Positions 51,844-61,845 of a stretch of DNA of 64,000 nt are shown here, piece by piece; positions within the stretch are counted from its first letter, which is position 1, and every line of letters begins with the position of its first letter. The DNA is from Selenomonadaceae bacterium (GTDB lineage Bacteria > Bacillota > Negativicutes > Selenomonadales > Selenomonadaceae). Below the pieces are notes generated by a model, which saw only the letters and a program-made list of their open reading frames with translations, was not told the origin of the DNA and did no database searches. Where the stretch lies: assembly GCA_017515635.1 (NCBI GenBank), contig JAFWFO010000054.1, positions 1 to 64,000 on the forward strand. The letters are read 5' to 3'. A program made the translations under genes and the position numbers.

Positions 51844-52212
51844 TCAAGGTTTCGGCGCGGCACTGAAAATTATTTTGCCCGTCAAGCCGCTCTCCGGAGT
51901 CATGGCAAGTATCAGGTCGCCCGCCGACACGTCAATAAAAGTTTCGCCGGATTTGTCGAACTCGTACTTTTTACCTTCGACTTCGAGAATCAACTTGCCG
52001 GAAGTAATTTGGGCGTCGACTTTAAGAACCTCTCCGTCGGAAATTTTTATGCCATTCCTTTCGGTGTCTCCTGACCCAATTGAGTAAGCACCATCCGCCT
52101 CAAGTATTACCCGATCGTCTGCCGTATGAGAGTTCACTATTACGGGTTTGTCACTGCAACCGCCGACAAGAAACGCCGTCAACAAAACCAAAACGCTCAA
52201 AAAATTTTTCAC
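51844..52212 (-). CDS. Small lipoprotein, paralogue 1
   Basis: 122 residues with a lipoprotein signal (MKNFLSVLVLLTAFLVGGCS, lipobox LVGGC). The mature domain is beta-rich and ends TGKIIFSAAPKP; VLKVDAQITSGKLILEVEGK and ETFIDVSAGDLILAMTPE match the paralogue upstream almost residue for residue. No family is recognised; probably an envelope protein. It lies 15 bases after the paralogue and should share its transcript. Confidence 0.75.
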   Translation of the reverse strand: MKNFLSVLVLLTAFLVGGCSDKPVIVNSHTADDRVILEADGAYSIGSGDTERNGIKISDGEVLKVDAQITSGKLILEVEGKKYEFDKSGETFIDVSAGDLILAMTPESGLTGKIIFSAAPKP

Positions 52213-52227
52213 GATTTAATTCCTCCG

Positions 52228-52674
52228 TCATTTTTTCGGCGCGGCACTTAAAATTATTTCGCCCGTCAAGCCGTCCTCCGAATCAATGAGAATAACATAC
52301 TCGTCAGGCGGTACGTCGATAAAAGATTTGCCCGACTTATCGATCACGTGTGGCGTCAGGTTGACAAAAGCGTTTTGGAACTTGATCACGTCCGATTTAT
52401 CGACAGAAGATTTGTCCGGTTTGTCTTCGAACACGAGCTTTTTTTCTCGGATTTTGAGAAGCAACTTGCCCGAAGTAATTTTTGCGTCGACTTGAATGGC
52501 CTCGCCGTCGTTAATTTTTAAGTAGCCGACACCGCCGCCATTTTCCGCGTTCTCCGCCGTAATTGTTACGGTGTTGGGTTTCGCAGTATTATCGATCTCC
52601 ATTGAGCTTTTGCCGCCGCAACCGCCGACGAGCAACGCCGTCAACAAAATCACCAAGCTTAAAAATTTTTTCAC
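52228..52674 (-). CDS. Small lipoprotein, paralogue 2
   Basis: 148 residues. Signal MKKFLSLVILLTALLVGGCG with lipobox LVGGC. The mature part shares VDAKITSGKLLLKI, SFIDVPPDEYVILID and TGEIILSAAPKK with paralogue 1, and carries an Asp/Lys-rich insertion in the middle (about 88-118). The GTG start is nine bases from AGGAGG. The leader is nearly identical to that of the small secreted protein at 24928. Function unknown; a duplicated pair in one operon. Confidence 0.75.
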   Translation of the reverse strand: MKKFLSLVILLTALLVGGCGGKSSMEIDNTAKPNTVTITAENAENGGGVGYLKINDGEAIQVDAKITSGKLLLKIREKKLVFEDKPDKSSVDKSDVIKFQNAFVNLTPHVIDKSGKSFIDVPPDEYVILIDSEDGLTGEIILSAAPKK

Positions 52675-52735: not shown

Positions 52736-52815
52736 GTTTTCGCGTTTTGATTGCACTTTTACAGACGCCGACAAGCAACGTCGCGATTAAAGTCAGCACG
52801 CTTAAAATTTTTCAT
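52736..52815 (-). pseudogene. Remnant of a third lipoprotein gene
   Basis: ATGAAAAATTTT at 52815 overlaps the phosphatase stop (ATGA). After loss of two bases the sequence reads SVLTLIATLLVGVC, a lipobox leader like its two neighbours, then ends. Only the signal-peptide part survives. Confidence 0.6.
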
Positions 52816-55019
52816 GAATTGCCCCCGTTGTATCTGAACGCGAACAAAGTTATGTCGTCGGATTGTTCCGCCTCGCCGACATGATCCGCCACGTCTCCGC
52901 GAATTTCTTTCAGCAAGGTTTTCAAATCGGCGCGACAATCGCACTTCGTTGAGTTCATGAAGTTTATCAATCTGTCGGGCAGATATTCTTCGTTTTTGAC
53001 GTTCAAAGCTTCCGTAACGCCGTCGGTGTAGACGAAAAGCAAATCGCCGCGTTTAAACGAAATTTTTTGTTCGACGAAAGGAATTCCGTCCATAGGGCCG
53101 AGGACAAAATTTTTCTTCACGTCAAGGAATTCGCAAGAATTTTTTTCAGCGCGATAAATCACGGGCGGATTGTGTCCGGCGTTGACGAAAGTAAATTCGC
53201 CGCTCTCCAAATCCAAAATGCCGACAAAGGCCGTCAAAAACATCATCGCGTCGTTGTTGGCGCAAAGTTTTTCGTTAGCCGCCTCGACAGCTGCGGCAAG
53301 TCCGTCGCTTTGATAAAGAGTCATTGCAAAATTGCTCAGCATATTTTTCGCGCTGACCATGAACATTGCGGCGGGAATGCCTTTGCCCGAAACGTCCGCA
53401 ACCGTTATCACAACGTGATTTTCGCCGAACTTGTAAAAGTCGTAGAAATCGCCGCCGACTTCTTTGGCGGGCGTCATTGTCGCGAACAAATCAACGCGTC
53501 CGTTTTCGTCGACGGAAAAATTTTTCGGCAACATACCTAATTGAATTTCCGTCGCAACGTCCAGCCCCGTGGCAATGCGTTGTTTTTCGGCGGTTTCTTT
53601 TTCCAAATTCAGCATCTGCGCTTTCAAGTTTTCGGTCATCTTGTTGAAGTCGTTCGCCAAGTCCTCAATTTCGTCGCCCGTTTTTATATCGAGTTTCTTG
53701 AAAGTTCTTTCCGTGAAATTTTCGCCGATAAGTGACGTAATTTCGCGCACACCGTCCGAAAGTTCATTAATCGGTTTTGCGAAACGCCGAGAAAGTTTCG
53801 TGCCCAACAGGAACAAAATTAACAGCAACGAGGCGGGAATTCCGACAAGCAACCACGTCAAGTACGAATATTCTTCGCGCAACAGATTTTGGAGTTGATT
53901 GATTTCGTTCATGAAATAATCGCGTGTGCCTTGCGATAAACTCGAAATCTGCGCTTCGGGGACAAGCAGACCGAATGACCATTTTGTTTCAGTCATTGGC
54001 GCGAATGCCAAATAAAAATCTTCGCCGGCAACAGTCACGGGCAACACTCCGCTTTCGCCGTCAAGCATTCTTTCAGCCGCCGCCGCCAAAGATTTTTCGG
54101 AACTCTCGCGCAGGTCGCCGTTTTGAACGGAAAGCGCGCTGTAATTGTGCGTTACGAAAATAATTTCTCCGTGCTGGTTCAAAACGAAACTGCAATCGTC
54201 ACTGTCGATAGTTTCGTCAACCAAATCGTAAATTTCTTTGCTTGAAAGATCCAATCCGACAACTCCCGCGAAATTTCCCGCCGCGTCATAAAACGGAGCA
54301 CTTGCGCCGATTTGCTGATAACTGCCGTCGTATTCAATCGTACGATACAAATCGGAAATGACGGGTCTGCCGGCTTTTTCGGCGGAAATGTACCAAGGAC
54401 GTTTGCGCGGGTCGAATTCGTAAATTCTTTCGTGGGAAAAACTTATCGTCTTGTTTTCGCTCAAATCGGTATCGACGAGACGAGCGCAAATATACCAGCC
54501 GTTTTTCGAGCCGACGAAAGCCGTCGCGTGATAACCTTCGTAGGATTTAAGTATTTCGCCGAGAATTTCCCTGATGTTTGCGGCAAGCGCGATTTCGTTT
54601 TGCATTTCGGGCGTGACATTGTCGCGAATATCGGGCGCGTAAATTATGTAAGGTTCCGCATTGTGCACGGGGTCTGTTCGCGGGTCGGGCAAATTTTTGG
54701 GCGAATAATTTTCCGGATGTGAAATAATATAAGTCATCGCCTCCGACAAAATGGTAACGTCTTCGCGAGTAACCGACATTTCGCGGTCAATGAATTGCGC
54801 CTTTGCTTCCGCCAATTCTGTGAGCGTAGCTTTAATTTGCCCAAGCGAAAGATCGTCGGTGAATTCCGCATTTTTTTCGCCGAATTCCGCGCTCATTGTC
54901 TGCATATCTTTTTGAACGACTCTGCTGCACAAATACGAAAAAATTCCGAGCGCAAGGAAAGTCGTCAGTCCCATACCGAGCACGAGTATCAAAACTTTTT
55001 GGTGAATGTTAAGCTTCAT
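52812..55019 (-). CDS. Membrane sensor protein phosphatase (dCache-HAMP-SpoIIE), copy 1
   Basis: 735 residues. Membrane segments near 10-33 and 385-405 enclose a dCache sensor (ISDLYRTIEYDGSYQQIG, GVVGLDLSSKEIYDL). HAMP and coiled coil follow (FAKPINELSDGVREIT), then a PP2C/SpoIIE phosphatase with GGDFYDFYKFGENH, VADVSGKGIPAAMFM and YTDGVTEALN. It should dephosphorylate a phospho-STAS protein when its signal is bound; the STAS and kinase genes lie upstream in the same run. The ATG has GGGAG upstream. A close paralogue precedes it. Signal unknown. Confidence 0.88.
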   Translation of the reverse strand: MKLNIHQKVLILVLGMGLTTFLALGIFSYLCSRVVQKDMQTMSAEFGEKNAEFTDDLSLGQIKATLTELAEAKAQFIDREMSVTREDVTILSEAMTYIISHPENYSPKNLPDPRTDPVHNAEPYIIYAPDIRDNVTPEMQNEIALAANIREILGEILKSYEGYHATAFVGSKNGWYICARLVDTDLSENKTISFSHERIYEFDPRKRPWYISAEKAGRPVISDLYRTIEYDGSYQQIGASAPFYDAAGNFAGVVGLDLSSKEIYDLVDETIDSDDCSFVLNQHGEIIFVTHNYSALSVQNGDLRESSEKSLAAAAERMLDGESGVLPVTVAGEDFYLAFAPMTETKWSFGLLVPEAQISSLSQGTRDYFMNEINQLQNLLREEYSYLTWLLVGIPASLLLILFLLGTKLSRRFAKPINELSDGVREITSLIGENFTERTFKKLDIKTGDEIEDLANDFNKMTENLKAQMLNLEKETAEKQRIATGLDVATEIQLGMLPKNFSVDENGRVDLFATMTPAKEVGGDFYDFYKFGENHVVITVADVSGKGIPAAMFMVSAKNMLSNFAMTLYQSDGLAAAVEAANEKLCANNDAMMFLTAFVGILDLESGEFTFVNAGHNPPVIYRAEKNSCEFLDVKKNFVLGPMDGIPFVEQKISFKRGDLLFVYTDGVTEALNVKNEEYLPDRLINFMNSTKCDCRADLKTLLKEIRGDVADHVGEAEQSDDITLFAFRYNGGNS

Positions 55020-55022
55020 TTT

Positions 55023-55072
55023 TACGACTCCCGTTGAATCTCAGCGCAAAGCAACGTGACGTTGCATCCAAT
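55023..55072 (-). pseudogene. Scrap of a phosphatase 3' end between the two copies
   Basis: The stretch translates as DATSRCFALRFNGS, close to the paralogues' common ending DDITLFAFRYNGG. It lies where a third copy would end, so one copy was probably lost by recombination between repeats. Confidence 0.45.
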
Positions 55073-55093
55073 TTGTTTGGTCGTTTGATAATT

Positions 55094-57340
55094 TCAGTCA
55101 CTTGCGTCAATCGAACCTCCGTTGTATCTGAACGCAAACAAAGTTATATCGTCCGATTGTTCCGCCTCGCCGACATGATCCGCCACGTCCGCACGAATTT
55201 TTTTCAGCAACGTCTGCAAGTCAACGCGACAATCCGTCGAGTTCATGAAGTTAATCAATCTGTCGGGCAGATATTCTTCGTTCTTGACGTTCAAAGCCTC
55301 CGTTACGCCGTCGGTGTAGACGAAAAGCAAATCGCCGCGTTTGAACGAAATTTTTTGTTCCGCGAAAGGAATTCCGTCCATCGGACCGAGAACAAAATTT
55401 TTCTTCACGTCAAGGAATTCGCAAGAATTTTCTTCAGCGCGATAAAGCACGGGCGGATTGTGTCCCCCGTTGACGAAAGTAAATTCGCCCGTCTCCAAAT
55501 CAAGCACGCCGATAAATGCCGTCACGAACATCATCGCTTCGTTGTTCGAGCAAATTTTTTCGTTCGCCGCCGAAACCGCCAGAGCCAAGCCGTTTTCTTT
55601 GTAAAATCTCACGATAAAATTATTCAGCACGGTTTTTGAACTGCCCATAAACAACGCGGCGGGAATGCCCTTGCCGGAAACGTCCGCAACCGTTATCACG
55701 ACGTGCGTTTTGTCCAAAAAGTAAAAGTCGTAAAAATCTCCGCCGACTTCTTTGGCAGGCGTCATCGTCGCGAGAATTTCAACGTCGTCGCGCAAGGGAA
55801 AATCTTTCGGCAACATGGACGATTGAATTTCTGCGGCAATGTCCAATTCGGTTTGAATACGTTCCTTTTCGGCGGTGGTTTTCGTCAAATTCGCGGTGTA
55901 TTCTTTCAGCACCTTGGTCATTTCGTTGAAACAAATTTCCAGATGTTTAATTTCGTCGTCCGTCTTGATGTAAAGTTTTTTGTCGTAATTGCCCGCCGCA
56001 ATTTCATGCACGCCGTCCGACAACTCGTTAATCGGTCTGACGAAACGCGCCGAAAGAAGTTTGCTCGCCGAAACGAAAATGTTCAGCAACCAAGCCAAAA
56101 GAATCAGCGCGGCGAAAATTATCAAGAAAAATTCGCCTTGAAGACGCGTGCCGAAAACTTCGACTTGCTCAAGAAAATAATCACGTCCCGCCTCGGCAAT
56201 GACGCTGATGTCGCGGCGCGGCGTGAGTGTCCCGAAACTCCAGCCGACATTCTTCATGGGCGCGAACGCCAAAAAATATTCTTCGCCGTCAACCGTTACG
56301 AGAACTGTACCTTTTTCGCCGTTGACCATTCGCGTTGCCGCTTCCGCCAAATTTTTTCGGGGACTCAAGCGCAAGTCCGAACCGTCGACTTTGGCAGAAA
56401 TTTTGTCGCCCTTGTACGACGAAAAAATTACTTTGCCATGTTTGTTCAATACGAAACTGAAACCGTCGGCACTGACATCGGTTGCGGCTATGTCGGTGTA
56501 AATATCTTCGTTTGAAACGCCTAACCCCACGACGCCAGCAATTTCGCCGTTTCTGTCGAAGTAAGGCGCGGAACAGCCGATAAATTGAAATTCGTCGGTG
56601 CCGGAATTCGTATACAGATCTGAGAAAATCGACTTGCCGGCCTTAGTCGCGTTCACATACCAAGGACGCGTGCGGCAATCGTAACGGTAAAGATCGTCGT
56701 CTACGAAGGGCAATTCGCCGCGAAGTTTCGGCAAAACGCTGACACAAATGAACCAGCCGTTTTTCGAGCCGACATAAAAAGATGATTTGTAATCGGCGAA
56801 AGATTTTGCCAGAGGCTTCATGTAAGTTCGGATATTCGAGGCAAGACCAATTTCGCGAAGAATTTCGGGCGACAAATTTTCCGGCGACATTCCGTTGAGA
56901 TAACTTTCGGGGCTGTAAATTATGTACGGGTCGAAATTCTGAACGGGGTCGATACGCGGGTCGCGCAATTTTATCGGCCGCCAATCATCGGGATTTGAAG
57001 TAATGTGCGTCATAATGTTCGCCATTATTTCCACGTTTTCGCGAATCAAATCCGTTTCGTGATCAATAAAATCTGCGCGGGATTCGGCAAGTTCTTCGAG
57101 TGTTTCTTTGAATTGGCGCAACATGAGTTCTTCGGTGAACTCCGCGCCCGCCGTGCCGACACGTCCGCCGAGTTCGTCCATTGCGCGTTTGACGATGTCC
57201 ATTGCGTAAAAAGAAAGACCGCTCAAGGTCAAAAATGACAGAAACCCCGTCGCCAAGACGAGGACGAGCAGTCTTGTTCTTATCTTCAACGTGTGCAATT
57301 TATGGACGCATTGCTTTATGCTTGCGAAAATATTTTCCAT
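55094..57340 (-). CDS. Membrane sensor protein phosphatase (dCache-HAMP-SpoIIE), copy 2
   Basis: 748 residues, same plan as copy 1: membrane segments near 25-48 and 410-432, a dCache sensor (FSDLYTNSGTDEFQFIG, GVVGLGVSNEDIYTD), HAMP with FVRPINELSDGVHEIA, and a SpoIIE domain with GGDFYDFYFLDKTH, VADVSGKGIPAALFM and YTDGVTEALN. The last 140 residues are almost identical to copy 1, the sensor domains much less so. That suggests one output with two inputs. ATG 57340 is preferred over GTG 57343 because GAGGA is six bases away. It is followed downstream by copy 1 and preceded by the RsbW-like gene. Confidence 0.88.
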   Translation of the reverse strand: MENIFASIKQCVHKLHTLKIRTRLLVLVLATGFLSFLTLSGLSFYAMDIVKRAMDELGGRVGTAGAEFTEELMLRQFKETLEELAESRADFIDHETDLIRENVEIMANIMTHITSNPDDWRPIKLRDPRIDPVQNFDPYIIYSPESYLNGMSPENLSPEILREIGLASNIRTYMKPLAKSFADYKSSFYVGSKNGWFICVSVLPKLRGELPFVDDDLYRYDCRTRPWYVNATKAGKSIFSDLYTNSGTDEFQFIGCSAPYFDRNGEIAGVVGLGVSNEDIYTDIAATDVSADGFSFVLNKHGKVIFSSYKGDKISAKVDGSDLRLSPRKNLAEAATRMVNGEKGTVLVTVDGEEYFLAFAPMKNVGWSFGTLTPRRDISVIAEAGRDYFLEQVEVFGTRLQGEFFLIIFAALILLAWLLNIFVSASKLLSARFVRPINELSDGVHEIAAGNYDKKLYIKTDDEIKHLEICFNEMTKVLKEYTANLTKTTAEKERIQTELDIAAEIQSSMLPKDFPLRDDVEILATMTPAKEVGGDFYDFYFLDKTHVVITVADVSGKGIPAALFMGSSKTVLNNFIVRFYKENGLALAVSAANEKICSNNEAMMFVTAFIGVLDLETGEFTFVNGGHNPPVLYRAEENSCEFLDVKKNFVLGPMDGIPFAEQKISFKRGDLLFVYTDGVTEALNVKNEEYLPDRLINFMNSTDCRVDLQTLLKKIRADVADHVGEAEQSDDITLFAFRYNGGSIDASD

Positions 57341-57349
57341 CACGCGTCC

Positions 57350-57757
57350 TCAGAAAAATTTTTTCATGCGCAAAATATTTTTGTCGTCCTTGCGCTCATA
57401 AGAAATTTCGTCGACATTTTTTTTGACAAGGAAAATTCCAAGTCCGCCGATAGCGCGTTCGTCTGCGGCAAGCGTTATATCGGGGTCGGGCTTTTCAAGC
57501 GGGTTGTAATATTTGCCGTCGTCAATGAACGTCAAAAAAACCGTGTCGGGATTTTCCGCAAAGTCCACGCAAAAAGTTGCGTCGCCCGTCGCTGATTCGT
57601 AAGCGTAACTTGCAATGTTGACGAAAATTTCTTCGATAACAAGTTCAAGTTGCATTGACGCTTTCATCGGGCAATCGCGAGCCTCAAGTTTTTCCATTGC
57701 GAAATCGACGACTTGTTGCAGATTTTCAACCGTCGCTTCGACCGTAATTTTTTCCAT
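57350..57757 (-). CDS. RsbW/SpoIIAB-like anti-sigma serine kinase
   Basis: 135 residues of the HATPase_c_2 type. N-box LELVIEEIFVNIASYAY, G1-like FIDDGKYYNPL and G2-like AIGGLGIFLVKKNVDEISY are all present. Such kinases hold a sigma factor or other target and phosphorylate a STAS antagonist. ATG with GGAG upstream. It lies 12 bases after the STAS gene and nine before phosphatase copy 2. No sigma-factor gene is in the window, so the final target is unknown. Confidence 0.88.
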   Translation of the reverse strand: MEKITVEATVENLQQVVDFAMEKLEARDCPMKASMQLELVIEEIFVNIASYAYESATGDATFCVDFAENPDTVFLTFIDDGKYYNPLEKPDPDITLAADERAIGGLGIFLVKKNVDEISYERKDDKNILRMKKFF

Positions 57758-57769
57758 GAAAAAACTCCG

Positions 57770-58066
57770 TTACTCGATTGTCATTAAACCCGCGAATCCC
57801 GTCATTTCCAAAACTTCCATGACTGTTTCGTTGACGTGGACGAGTTTCATTGAACCTTGCTTGTTCATGCGCTTTTGGGCGACGAGCAAGACGCGAAGTC
57901 CCGCAGAAGCAATGTACTGCAGTTCGGCGAAATCGAACGTCAATTCTGTTATGCCGTCAAGTTCGGCGTTGAGGAATTTTGTCAGTTCGGGTGCGCTGCC
58001 TGCGTCGAGTCTGCCGATAACTTGAACCGTCAATGCGCTGCCGTTGAGTTCCTTTTTAATTTCCAT
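57770..58066 (-). CDS. STAS-domain anti-sigma factor antagonist
   Basis: 98 residues: MEIKKELNGSALTVQVIGRL at the N-terminus, then ITELTFDFAELQYIASAGLRVLLVAQK with the phosphorylatable serine in ASAGLR. It is the switch partner of the RsbW-like kinase and the likely substrate of the two SpoIIE phosphatases. ATG 58066 with GGAGG nine bases upstream; the longer frame to 58180 overlaps the histidine kinase region and is not used. First gene of the partner-switching run after the hybrid kinase. Confidence 0.9.
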   Translation of the reverse strand: MEIKKELNGSALTVQVIGRLDAGSAPELTKFLNAELDGITELTFDFAELQYIASAGLRVLLVAQKRMNKQGSMKLVHVNETVMEVLEMTGFAGLMTIE

Positions 58067-58106: not shown

Positions 58107-59735
58107 TCAAATTTTGTCGCGTGCGGCGATATATTTGTTGACGGATGCGATAAGTTGCACCACGTCGAAAGGTTTTGCAATGTGATAATTCATGCCGCTT
58201 TCCATGCTCATGCGTTTATCTTCTTCGCGGGAATTGGCACTGAGCGCGATAATTGGCAAAGTTTTTGCGTCGGGGCGATCAAGCGCACGAATTGCACGCG
58301 TCGCCTCGTAGCCGTTCATTATCGGCATTTGAATATCCATCAACACCAAGTCATAATAACCGGGCGGATGTTTGATGAAAGCGTCGACCGCGTCGCAACC
58401 GTCGGGTACAGTTTCGACCGAAAAGCCGGATTCTTCCAAAATAGTTTCCGCCAACATGCGATTAAGTTCAATGTCGTCGACCAAAAGAATTCTGTTGCTG
58501 CAGTTCGAATCGTCCGAAACAGTTTCGGAAATTTTTTCGGGCGTTGAATTTTCGCGGTGAAGTTTAAACGGCAATCCGACCGTGAAAGTTGAGCCGCGAC
58601 CTTTTTCGCTCTTCGCTTCGATTGAGCCGCCCATTGCGTCCAAAAGTTTTTTCGTTATCGCAAGACCGAGCCCCATGCCCGCATGTCCGGTTTTCGTCGA
58701 AGAATTTTCGCGCTCAAAAGATTCGTACATGTGCGCCATGAATTCTTTGCTCATGCCGACGCCGGTATCTTCAATCGTGAATTCGCAACGAACGTAACCG
58801 GATTCGGAAATTTTGCTTTTTTTGGCTGTGACTTTGACCGTGCCGCCTTCGGGCGTAAATTTTATTGCGTTGTCCAAAAGCGTGGAAAGAATTTTTTGCA
58901 GGTTGACATCGTCGGTGTAAACCAACTCTTCGGGCAAGTTCAGTTTCGTTTCGACGAAAATTTTTTTCTTTGCCGCCGCGTCCTCGAAAGATTTCACGAC
59001 ATTTGTCACCAGTTCGGACAAGTCACAAATTTCCGTGCGCAAATGCATTTTGCCGTAAGTGACTTTGCTCATGTCCAAAAGTTCGCTGACAAGTCCCAGC
59101 AGTTGCCGATTGGATTCGTCGACTTTTTGCAGATAATTGCGCACAAGTTCCGGCTCGTCCAGATGACGGCTTGCCAAATCCGTAAAGCCTTGAATTGCGT
59201 TGAGCGGCGTCAAAAGGTCGTGCGAAATGTTAAACAGGAACGCGGCTTTGACTTCGTTGGCCTGCTTCGCCTTGTCGAGTTCCAATTCCATGCGTTGTTT
59301 ATCTTCTTGAATTTCTTTGCGTTCGGTGATGTCGCTGATAAAAACGTAAAACGCTTCGCCATATTCTGGGAACGTCGACAAATGCCCGTAATCGTCCACC
59401 CAACGAACAGTGCCGTCTTTGCGCGTGATTCGATATTCCACGTGGTCAAGTTTTTCGTTTTTGGGATTGGCGATTTGCTCCGTGATGGACTCTTGAATTT
59501 TGGCGAAATCTTGCGGATAAACCATGCCGCGAAAAGTGTAGCCCGTCAGCTCTCGGAACTCGTCCAAATTTTCGCAACCGTAGATGTTCAAAACTTCGCT
59601 GTTGACGTAAAGAACTTTGAACGGCTCTTTGGCGGAGTAAATAAAAAATCCGCCGGGAACATGCTCGGAAAACCATTTCAGCATTGGTAAAACTTCGTAA
59701 AGATACTTCTTGCCCAAAAAGTCGGTTCTGCTCAT
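58107..59735 (-). CDS. Hybrid histidine kinase (PAS-HisKA-HATPase-REC)
   Basis: 542 residues, soluble. A PAS domain (about 20-140, with RITRKDGTVRWVDDYGHL) leads to a coiled linker, HisKA with FLFNISHDLLTPLNAIQGF, HATPase with IEDTGVGMSKEF and GMGLGLAITKKLLDAMGG, and a receiver domain ILLVDDIELNRML with the aspartate in VLMDIQMPIMNG. No output or HPt domain is present, so phosphate probably goes to a separate protein. ATG 59735 follows GGGGG. The frame to 59879 runs into the promoter. It lies 40 bases before the STAS gene and may be co-transcribed with it. Confidence 0.9.
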   Translation of the reverse strand: MSRTDFLGKKYLYEVLPMLKWFSEHVPGGFFIYSAKEPFKVLYVNSEVLNIYGCENLDEFRELTGYTFRGMVYPQDFAKIQESITEQIANPKNEKLDHVEYRITRKDGTVRWVDDYGHLSTFPEYGEAFYVFISDITERKEIQEDKQRMELELDKAKQANEVKAAFLFNISHDLLTPLNAIQGFTDLASRHLDEPELVRNYLQKVDESNRQLLGLVSELLDMSKVTYGKMHLRTEICDLSELVTNVVKSFEDAAAKKKIFVETKLNLPEELVYTDDVNLQKILSTLLDNAIKFTPEGGTVKVTAKKSKISESGYVRCEFTIEDTGVGMSKEFMAHMYESFERENSSTKTGHAGMGLGLAITKKLLDAMGGSIEAKSEKGRGSTFTVGLPFKLHRENSTPEKISETVSDDSNCSNRILLVDDIELNRMLAETILEESGFSVETVPDGCDAVDAFIKHPPGYYDLVLMDIQMPIMNGYEATRAIRALDRPDAKTLPIIALSANSREEDKRMSMESGMNYHIAKPFDVVQLIASVNKYIAARDKI

Positions 59736-59862: not shown

Positions 59863-61845
59863 TTATATGTGTTCCTCAAGTTTCAAGATCAAATCTCTCA
59901 ACTCGGCGGCTCGTTCAAATTCCAAATTCCGTGAGGCCTCGCGCATTTCGGCGGTTAAACTTTTGACAAGATTTTTTCGCTGTGACGGCGACAATTTTTT
60001 TATCAGCTCGCTCGGCGATTTAGATTTTTTGTCGGATTTCTTCAGCGGCAATTCAATCAGCGGAGCTATCGGCTTTTGAATTGTTTTAGGCGTCACGCGG
60101 AATTTTTTGTTGTAGTCTTGCTGAATTTGTCGACGCCGCGCAGTTTCGTCCATTGCCCGCCGCATTGAGTCCGTCACTTTGTCCGCGTACAAAATTACTT
60201 TGCCGTTGACGTTTCGCGCCGCCCGTCCGATTGTTTGTATCAGTGACGTTTCCGAACGCAAAAAACCTTCTTTGTCCGCGTCGAGGATTGCGATTAGCGA
60301 AACTTCCGGCATGTCCAAACCTTCGCGCAAAAGATTTATTCCGACAAGTACGTCGAATTTTCCCGCCCGCAAGTCGTGAATAATTTCCGCACGCTCCAAA
60401 GTGACAACGTCCGAATGCAAATATTTCACGCGAATTTTTACGCCGCTCAAGTAATCCGTCAATTCTTCGGCGAATTTTTTTGTCAGCGTCGTTATTAAAA
60501 TTCGTTCGTTCGCCGCGACGCGCAGATTTATTTCGGCGATTAAGTCGTCGATTTGGTTTTCAATCGGGCGCACTTCGACAAGCGGGTCAAGCAGTCCCGT
60601 CGGGCGAATGATTTGCTCGACTGTGTTTTGTGATTCGGCAAGCTCGTAAGCGGCGGGCGTCGCGCTCACGAAAATTATCTGCGAAATTTTTTCGTTAAAC
60701 TCGTTGAAAGTCAACGGGCGGTTATCGCGTGCGCTCGGAAGTCTGAATCCGTTTTCAATCAGCGAATTTTTGCGTGATTGATCGCCCGCGTACATTGCGC
60801 GAAGTTGCGGTAAAGTTACATGCGATTCGTCGACGACCGTCAAAAATTTTTCGGGAAAATAATCAATCAGCGTGAACGGCGGTTCACCTTGAGCGCGTCC
60901 CGTCAAATGCCGCGAATAATTTTCTATGCCGGAACAATAGCCCATTTCTTGAATCATTTCCAAATCAAATTTCGTGCGTTGTTCGATTCGCTGAGCTTCG
61001 ATTAATTTTCCGCGTGCCGTGAAATTTTCAACCTGCGCGGACATTTCGGCACGAATATTTTTTTCGGCGCGTTGCAAGTCGTCGTAATCGGTGACGTAAT
61101 GCGAGGCGGGGAAAATAAAAACTTCGTCGCGCTGCCCGATAATTTTTCCCGTCAAAATCTCGAACTCGGAAATTTTTTCAACCTCGTCGCCGAAAAGTTC
61201 AATGCGCAATGCCCGACCGTTGTAGCCCGCGGGCGTTACTTCAATCGTGTCGCCGCGCACGCGAAAATTTCCGCGCTCGATAATCATGTCGTTGCGTTCG
61301 TAGCGAATTTCAATCAGTCGCCGCAAAATTTTTTCACGCGGAATAATTTGCCCCGTCTTGACGTGCAAAAGCATTTTGGAATAATTTTCGGGTGAACCCA
61401 AACCGTAAATGCACGACACACTTGCAACGATAATCACGTCGCGCCGCTCGAACAAACTGCACGTCGCGGAGTGGCGCATTTGGTCAATTTCGTCGTTGAT
61501 TGACGCGTCCTTTTCGATGTAAGTATCCGTTGCGGCAATGTAGGCTTCGGGCTGATAATAATCGTAGTAGCTGACGAAATAGCCGACGTAATTTTCGGGG
61601 AAAAAATTTTTGAACTCGGCGGCAAGTTGCGCCGCCAAAGTTTTGTTGTGCGCGATAACCAGCGTGGGCAGTTGAACGCGTTCGATGACTTTTGCGACGG
61701 TGAAAGTTTTGCCCGTGCCCGTTGCTCCCAAAAGAACTTGAGCGCGATAACCGTCGTCAAGCCCGTCCGCCAATGATTTTATCGCCTGCGGTTGGTCGCC
61801 CGTCGGCTGAAAGTTTGAAACGACTTTAAATTTTTTGTTCAGCAA
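59863..61845 (-). CDS. uvrB: UvrABC excinuclease subunit B
   Basis: 660 residues, full length. Helicase-like damage-verifying subunit of nucleotide excision repair. Seen: Walker [13 protein letters not shown], the beta-hairpin region [53 protein letters not shown] and the C-terminal UVR domain ([13 protein letters not shown]) that binds UvrC. TTG start with GAGGT upstream, overlapping the HD-GYP gene end. uvrA and uvrC are not adjacent in the window. Confidence 0.97.

Follow-up and report, generated by a model that had tools for sequence, protein, structure and literature searches.

Two tandem phosphatase genes of a partner-switching operon carry diverged sensors on catalytic tails that are repeatedly made alike by gene conversion. 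The operon lies on the minus strand of the window, by which we mean the whole 64,000-nucleotide (nt) stretch analysed here, namely positions 1 to 64,000 of contig JAFWFO010000054.1 from a Selenomonadaceae bacterium (GenBank assembly GCA_017515635.1). It comprises genes for a hybrid histidine kinase, a STAS protein, an RsbW-like kinase and two SpoIIE-type phosphatases, PP2C_A and PP2C_B. As a switch it belongs to a known kind, and what is new is the pattern of conversion; in open PubMed Central papers, for the terms searched, neither this locus nor gene conversion among partner-switch phosphatases was found described, judged by title or abstract start.

Gene conversion of the catalytic tails

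PP2C_A (55094..57343, minus strand, 749 amino acids) and PP2C_B (52812..55019, minus strand, 735 amino acids) are both dCache_1-HAMP-SpoIIE phosphatases, with a residue identity of 43% in positions 1-400 that rises to 93% in the final ~110. The initial annotation had described near-identical catalytic ends with different sensors, and this stands, with the qualification that both sensors are of the dCache_1 type and hence, judged by family, diverged paralogues rather than unrelated sensors. At the nucleotide level, identity in 40-codon windows is 42-69% in the sensor half and 85-94% from PP2C_A codon ~601 onward, as far as the shared tail goes. The converted tract of PP2C_A, in which the DNA resembles PP2C_B, covers residues ~606-740 (55124..55528, minus strand), and its counterpart in PP2C_B covers residues ~594-730 (52830..53240, minus strand).

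We compared A and B in 20 tandem pairs and built trees from 38 sequences of 19 genomes. The comparison excluded multi-copy arrays in three genomes (G018, G049 and G068), where the individual copies could not be assigned to A or B. One genome (G046), in which A lacks a sensor at a contig end, was omitted from the trees and kept in the synonymous-codon test, the B copy of another (G072_B) was kept though its 3' end is cut, and a near relative of the window, locus L206, was used for polarity and does not appear in the trees. In the sensor half, A and B of the same genome are alike at 35-43% of residues, compared with orthologue medians of 51-68%, whereas over the last ~110 residues the relation is inverted, with 82-98% within a genome and orthologue medians of 75-87%. 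Codons for the same amino acid behave in the same way. In the tail (A606-740) they are 73-99% identical within a genome (85% for the window's pair), which is above the orthologue median in 20/20 pairs and above the best orthologue in 15/20; in the sensor the corresponding values are 42-65%, above the orthologue median in just 7/20. The effect spans the cytosolic part of the proteins, peaks in the tail and is absent from the sensor.

The trees change in step with this gradient. The sensor tree consists of clean A and B clades across the 19 genomes, with one A/B change and no same-genome cherries. The HAMP/linker tree has 2 A/B changes and 1 such cherry, the front of the PP2C domain 5 changes and 3 cherries, and the tail 16 changes, with same-genome cherries in 13/19 genomes, 10 of these with support of at least 97. 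This is recurrent interlocus gene conversion between tandem paralogues. Purifying selection alone, which was considered as a cause of the alike tails, is ruled out by the synonymous codons together with the trees.

It might be argued that the alike tails, and the scrap of coding sequence described below, are artefacts of metagenome assembly. The named records are, with few exceptions, metagenome assemblies, the others are fragmented too, and repeats assemble poorly; moreover, the window's junction is known from a single assembly (2.51 Mb, 72 contigs, 86.9% complete). Against this, the window's tails are alike yet not identical at the nucleotide level, the pattern recurs across separate genomes, and swapped tails would not increase within-genome similarity. 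We regard an artefact as very improbable.

The scrap between PP2C_A and PP2C_B

PP2C_A and PP2C_B are separated by a 74-nt spacer (55020..55093, minus strand) that is not present in L206. The initial annotation had reported a scrap of another 3' end at this point and had taken it for the trace of a third phosphatase. The scrap itself (55020..55050, minus strand) is real: it lies outside the coding start of PP2C_B and is identical at 27 of 31 nt to the PP2C_A end of L206, an alignment that scores 42, compared with a maximum of 27 in 2000 shuffles (0/2000 as good). A third phosphatase, in contrast, was dropped as our first reading of the scrap after the junctions of the 20 tandem pairs and L206 had been compared, as the relatives have an A-type 3' end in this ancestral place, against the start of PP2C_B. 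L206, whose UvrB is 97.6% identical to that of the window, contains exactly two PP2C copies; its A ends ..FALRYKGSRKNEA and reaches 11 nt into the start of B. The window's scrap continues as ..FALRFNGSRKNEA and a stop, overlapping the start of PP2C_B, as the A end of L206 does, and the window's PP2C_A now ends ..FAFRYNGG.., the same as its PP2C_B (..FAFRYNGG..). An overlap of 4-14 nt between the end of A and the start of B is seen at 11 of the 19 other junctions; it is also found in G020 and G062 if B starts at an ATG inside the end of A, one further genome (G071) has no such overlap, and the remaining five junctions hold an inserted gene.

The scrap is thus most likely the former 3' end of PP2C_A, stranded when a B-like tail replaced A's own. 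The ~40 nt between the new stop of PP2C_A and the scrap match the sequence downstream of PP2C_B over 9 nt only, and a relaxed alignment (score 28; best of 2000 shuffles, 20) suggests that part of this segment is degraded old A tail.

A different history would start from three phosphatase genes, with an additional A-type copy between A and B; its deletion would have left the scrap as a last remnant, and unequal crossing-over in the array would have produced the chimeric A tail. Some relatives have three or more PP2C copies or fragments of them (e.g., G049 at locus L181), other arrangements occur in G018 (locus L065), and from the scrap alone one cannot tell whether it ended the present A or an additional A-type gene. 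This history nevertheless has to contend with L206, where two copies, an 11-nt overlap and an A end matching the scrap are found together, and with the overlap being common in the other genomes. When the A ends of the 19 other genomes were aligned with the spacer, 8 scored above 27, the best shuffle score obtained with L206, and 11 did not. A deleted copy would require at least two events, conversion one, and we consider a deleted copy improbable.

Switch proteins, sensors and a shared target

The partner-switching block of the initial annotation was recovered part by part at the coordinates given here, with its domains above the Pfam cut-offs. The phosphatases match SpoIIE with 153 and 154 bits, and dCache_1, HAMP, HATPase_c_2 and STAS also exceed their cut-offs. 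The STAS protein (57770..58066, minus strand, 98 amino acids) scores 51.8 bits against STAS and is above the TIGR00377 cut-off, and the RsbW-like GHKL protein kinase (57350..57757, minus strand, 135 amino acids) scores 78 bits against HATPase_c_2. Gaps of 12 nt (STAS-RsbW) and 6 nt (RsbW-PP2C_A) separate the genes. The metal-binding motifs are intact in PP2C_A and PP2C_B; VGGDFYD, ADVSGKG and YTDG occur in 48/48 aligned copies and DDIT in 47/48, the remaining row being cut short. The conserved switch serine of the STAS protein, Ser54 (..YIASAGLR..), is invariant in 15/15 STAS sequences, as are E42/E43, N47, D79-x-G81 and GGLG 104-107 among 15 RsbW sequences; we take these kinase residues to be the N, G1 and G2 boxes of GHKL kinases. 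The sequence features of an RsbU-RsbV-RsbW type module are present, i.e., a SpoIIE-type PP2C, a STAS protein with a predicted phosphorylatable serine and a GHKL kinase, and by analogy the intact motifs support a working phosphorylation cycle.

The hybrid kinase that the initial annotation placed upstream is a PAS-HisKA-HATPase_c-REC protein encoded upstream of STAS (58107..59735, minus strand; Pfam scan). Its start is likely at 59735, the counterpart of the start of a 542-amino-acid hybrid kinase reading frame in L206, although the mechanically called frame extends to a TTG at 59879. As its Pfam content is limited to PAS, HisKA, HATPase and REC, this kinase is probably soluble.

An RsbW orthologue (at least 54% identity) was found in 46/60 sampled genomes of the genus. 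We laid out 42 loci by tblastn with families fixed in advance, since greedy longest-ORF (open reading frame) calls had missed RsbW in 41/80 loci of another survey and some STAS and RsbW genes in the genus loci. These 42 loci were hand-picked from match lists and some end at contig ends, so the fractions describe that selection. RsbW is present in 39/42, with STAS directly upstream in 38/39, a PP2C directly downstream in 34/39 and a B-type copy next in 19/39. Upstream of STAS, 24 loci carry a hybrid kinase and 5 a helix-turn-helix-methyltransferase protein; in L065:6909-7742 and four other loci, an XRE-type helix-turn-helix/methyltransferase fusion replaces the hybrid kinase at this place (domains checked in L065). 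In five genomes (L172:5528-6679, L171, L173, L057 and L176), a gene of ~382 codons lies between PP2C_A and PP2C_B, and the one product checked, that of L172, contains TPR repeats. L181 (G049:C12:1-3400) holds a series of partial SpoIIE phosphatase copies, as if an array were breaking up or being rebuilt.

The available part of a 2024 docking study by Caban-Penix et al. (PMC11418112) reports that three loops of SpoIIE/RsbU phosphatases choose the STAS substrate, and offers the speculation that phosphatases, once duplicated, can evolve a new specificity. We mapped these loops by HMMER alignment to SpoIIE, counting the spacing of E675, I723 and P752 by hand. The three residues align with positions 604, 655 and 683/684 of the window's PP2C_A; the counterparts of I723 and P752 are inside the converted tract and that of E675 borders it. 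In 12/20 genomes A and B have the same alpha3/4 loop, compared with 25/380 cross-genome A-B pairs and 21/380 orthologue pairs, and the flap has a mean identity of 94% within genomes versus 85-86%. Conversion thus holds two of the three docking loops together, which leads us to infer that PP2C_A and PP2C_B act on one and the same STAS protein.

The two sensors, in turn, have kept apart. When mapped on PctA, R126, W128 and Y129 are retained in 47/47 sequences with data, whereas position 121 is Tyr in 19/19 A and Phe in 18/20 B sensors, and position 146 is His or Asn (one Gly) in the A set and Thr or Ser in the B set. The pockets are therefore separately conserved in A and B, which fits different ligands. 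The combination of an aromatic residue at 121 (Tyr or Phe) with R126, W128, Y129 and D173, the motif published for the amino-acid class dCache_1AA, is found in 44/48 sequences, including the window's PP2C_B; its PP2C_A has Gly at 173. Sensor-class motifs have been described for the amino-acid class dCache_1AA and for autoinducer-2 (AI-2) receptors of the CahR type (PMC10104139, PMC7584622 and PMC9540692, in the parts available). Set beside these motifs, the sensors have R126, W128, Y129 and the aromatic 121, and they differ from the AI-2 class in that D146 is missing, as is D173 in the window's PP2C_A. An AI-2 receptor, defined by R126, W128, Y144, D146 and D173, was ruled out: 0/48 sequences fit (one lacks the region), and D146 is missing from every row with data.

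Taken by analogy with characterised systems, these features would describe a two-input partner switch. The RsbW-like kinase would phosphorylate the STAS protein at its conserved serine, and PP2C_A or PP2C_B would remove the phosphate once its own dCache sensor binds ligand; unphosphorylated STAS would then bind RsbW and free RsbW's partner. After a tandem duplication, the sensors would have diverged once and stayed apart, and the catalytic tails, with two of the three docking loops, would have been repeatedly overwritten by within-genome conversion, keeping both enzymes on the same STAS protein. In the window, the last overwrite would have put a B-like tail into PP2C_A, and the scrap would be what remains of A's former 3' end. 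Domain content, operon order, motifs, conversion and the A-type scrap are read from the sequence; the phosphorylation cycle, ligand gating and shared target are carried over from known families. We consider it likely that the switch has two inputs with both phosphatases on one STAS target. The initial annotation had several outside signals probably converge on one STAS switch, and two sensors on one STAS/RsbW pair are also our best reading, strengthened because the STAS-RsbW-PP2C order is conserved and the catalytic ends are kept alike by repeated conversion; the hybrid kinase, given its Pfam content, is at most a possible reader of outside signals.

Several observations weigh against this scheme. 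Eight compared genomes have a single phosphatase at the locus, and the tails do not form same-genome cherries in 6/19 (G014, G016, G048, G051, G058 and G075). Conversion reaches beyond the substrate face, as in 20/20 pairs synonymous identity exceeds the orthologue median in the HAMP/linker and in the front of PP2C as well. The third docking loop, the switch loop, follows the A/B split and is not homogenised (A=B in 3/20 genomes; identical in 158/380 orthologue pairs). Because the genome contains a close second STAS protein, the two phosphatases could share a STAS target other than that of the operon, or each could have its own. In the window's PP2C_A, Gly stands at 173, where all 19 other A sensors have an Asp in the pocket, and ligand binding may therefore have changed relative to its orthologues. 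Finally, the proximity of direct repeats could explain conversion without selection.

This last point is the basis of a rival view, in which recombination between direct repeats keeps the tails alike as a neutral side effect and a common target of PP2C_A and PP2C_B is not required. The PP2C copies are adjacent and codirectional, and both the spread of raised synonymous identity into HAMP and the front of PP2C and the unmatched switch loop agree with it. It sits less well with genomes in which the ~382-codon gene places A and B 1.1-1.6 kb apart, as tail cherries persist in 3/4 of those in the tree (G010, G065 and G069; not G048). Sensors pair in 0/19 genomes, as expected if sensor divergence and tail sameness were both favoured, yet sensor divergence itself blocks recombination. 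On balance we find a neutral origin rather unlikely, and prefer the two-input switch with a shared target.

In Bacillus subtilis, RsbU and RsbP are phosphatases with different inputs that both act on RsbV. The operon resembles this RsbU/RsbP-RsbV-RsbW system in having two SpoIIE-type phosphatases, one STAS protein and one GHKL kinase of the same domain types. It differs from the B. subtilis sigma B switch in that the phosphatases are tandem membrane dCache receptors with matched tails, no sigma gene is present on the contig, and RsbW scores 20.8 bits where the RsbW equivalog cut-off is 145. A parallel to the sensor-tail mosaic is provided by Tlp2, Tlp3 and Tlp4 of Campylobacter jejuni, for which the available part of the source gives dCache_1 sensors ~30% identical over identical signalling domains, with a signalling-domain tree that largely follows the genome tree and a sensor tree that does not (PMC9769880). 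There, too, diverged dCache_1 sensors sit on alike signalling parts, but the proteins are chemoreceptors rather than phosphatases, and in that part of the source their identity is not ascribed to conversion between copies.

Operon surroundings and candidate outputs

The full minus-strand row consists of an HD-GYP-like protein, UvrB, the hybrid histidine kinase, STAS, the RsbW-like kinase, PP2C_A, PP2C_B, two small lipoprotein-like genes and an amidase-like gene, the UvrB, lipoprotein and amidase labels being assigned by eye. PP2C_B is followed by a 55-nt, frame-broken remnant of a lipoprotein signal peptide (52761-52815, minus strand), which scores 78 against L206, compared with at most 22 in 500 shuffles. 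In L206 an intact lipoprotein-like gene occupies this place, making three in a row, and in the window two intact copies come after the remnant (52228-52674 and 51844-52212).

As the initial annotation had noted, no sigma factor is encoded nearby. The linked cognate sigma factor of the sigma-B subset is lacking, with no Sigma70_r2 match on the window's contig and four elsewhere in the assembly. These four proteins read as RpoD, a sigma factor beside chemotaxis-like genes, SigH and an RpoD-like protein of 245 amino acids on contig C6 (SigH was named by NCBIfam, RpoD and the factor beside chemotaxis-like genes by eye). The SpoIIE-type phosphatases detected in the assembly are PP2C_A and PP2C_B only; a third, weak phosphatase match is a Stp1/IreP-type enzyme (NCBIfam). 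HATPase_c_2 is found in RsbW, in one MATE-transporter fusion on contig C8 and in one match below cut-off. Besides the operon's STAS protein there are three STAS matches: a 115-amino-acid paralogue on C6, close to the operon STAS (60-61% identity), a STAS-APH protein on C8 and a STAS-AMP-ligase on C56. The idea of one STAS and one output in the initial annotation consequently fits the operon but not the genome.

In a classical anti-sigma system, RsbW would hold the unlinked RpoD-like sigma factor from C6. We judged this protein the most likely free alternative factor of the four; its gene is ~5.5 kb from that of the second STAS protein, and in one genome (G021) a STAS gene paired with one for a 113-amino-acid protein, P113, lies directly upstream of it. 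However, the factor occurs in just 28/60 genomes. Across the 60 genomes (co-occurrence counts taken by hand from match tables), 25 have both RsbW and this sigma factor, 21 RsbW only, 3 the sigma factor only and 11 neither (Fisher P 0.04, kinship ignored). As it was not found in 21/46 genomes with an RsbW orthologue, it can hardly be a general partner of RsbW, allowing for incomplete assemblies, though it may be one in this clade. One of the 3 genomes with the factor and without RsbW is 95% complete, and the low equivalog score of RsbW also speaks against an anti-sigma role, which we consider unlikely.

The output could instead be an enzyme, with STAS or RsbW controlling a diguanylate cyclase or a STAS-fused enzyme, as in the SiaABCD or HsbA pathways of Pseudomonas. 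In SiaABCD of P. aeruginosa, a PP2C, a kinase and an anti-sigma-antagonist-like protein form a partner switch acting on an enzyme (PMC7647112, in the part available). The present operon is likewise sigma-free and contains a PP2C, and among the named NCBIfam models the two phosphatases score best against SiaA, at 59.1 and 80.2 bits. The assembly has 13 GGDEF matches, an HD-GYP-like gene lies upstream beyond UvrB, and STAS-APH and STAS-AMP-ligase fusions are present in the genome. The SiaA scores, however, are far under the equivalog cut-off of 700, and the STAS protein has a serine where SiaC has a threonine (T68). All 13 GGDEF matches lie on contigs other than the window's (the relatives' loci were not scanned for GGDEF), and the HD gene mostly stays beside UvrB where both are found. 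An enzyme output is accordingly doubtful.

P113 is our best lead for a client other than a sigma factor, at low confidence. In the present genome it is encoded next to the second STAS protein. Among the matches listed (genus sample, read by hand), it adjoins a STAS gene at 44/45 places, the other being in G052, where no STAS neighbour is listed. Directly upstream of the present STAS gene it occurs in two genomes, in the order STAS-P113-STAS-RsbW in G007, where P113 is frame-broken in the assembly, and STAS-P113-STAS with no RsbW after in G063. P113 is found in 44/60 genus genomes and in 3/200 of a class sample, two of the three being in the genus; in the genomes searched it is limited to this genus and one other of the family. 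No Pfam match was obtained (one of 12 members reaches E 0.2), nor a relative in the PDB (one match at E 0.37). RsbW and P113 occur together in 39 of the 60 genomes, RsbW alone in 7, P113 alone in 5 and neither in 9 (Fisher P 0.0008, kinship ignored). It is tempting to speculate that conversion is selected, matching the substrate face of the two phosphatases to one co-evolving STAS protein, and that the output is P113 and not a sigma factor; we hold this combination as a speculative and rather doubtful extension. In L241:7660-11591 and L276:7699-11582, a 209-amino-acid protein occupies the place that P113 has in G063 and G007, in a row of STAS, this protein, a second STAS, RsbW and PP2C, followed by a PAS-HD gene; in L241 the 209-amino-acid protein has no Pfam match and the PP2C is a dCache-SpoIIE phosphatase.

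Partner-switch domains are also seen fused to metabolic proteins. On C8 (L016, G000:C8:1-7300) and in L020:2998-4809 we found a MATE transporter with a C-terminal RsbW-like domain, STAS joined to an APH-fold kinase and STAS joined to an AMP-binding ligase; two proteins of 419 and one of 456 amino acids, without Pfam match, are encoded beside the MATE-RsbW and STAS-APH fusions. In assemblies of rumen Clostridia and Ruminococcus (L226, L247 and L267), STAS, a 995-amino-acid AMP-binding protein, a protein of ~552 amino acids, RsbW and PP2C stand in a row, preceded by a MATE-like gene in L226 and L247. L226 has Pfam matches to adenylation, carrier and condensation domains, a carboxylesterase and SpoIIE, and looks like a partner switch inside a small non-ribosomal peptide cluster.

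The operon bears on the question of how duplicated phosphatases keep or change their STAS target. In many species it displays a fate opposite to a drift toward new targets, in that the sensors diverge and the catalytic ends are pulled back by conversion, and about twenty natural A/B pairs are now at hand for a direct test of target sharing. The best named matches of RsbW are Selenomonadales/Selenomonadaceae metagenome assemblies, several with a ruminant-gut label. For ruminant-gut bacteria, seen here as metagenome assemblies only, the locus also marks a partner switch that has no linked sigma factor and for which a new candidate client can be named.

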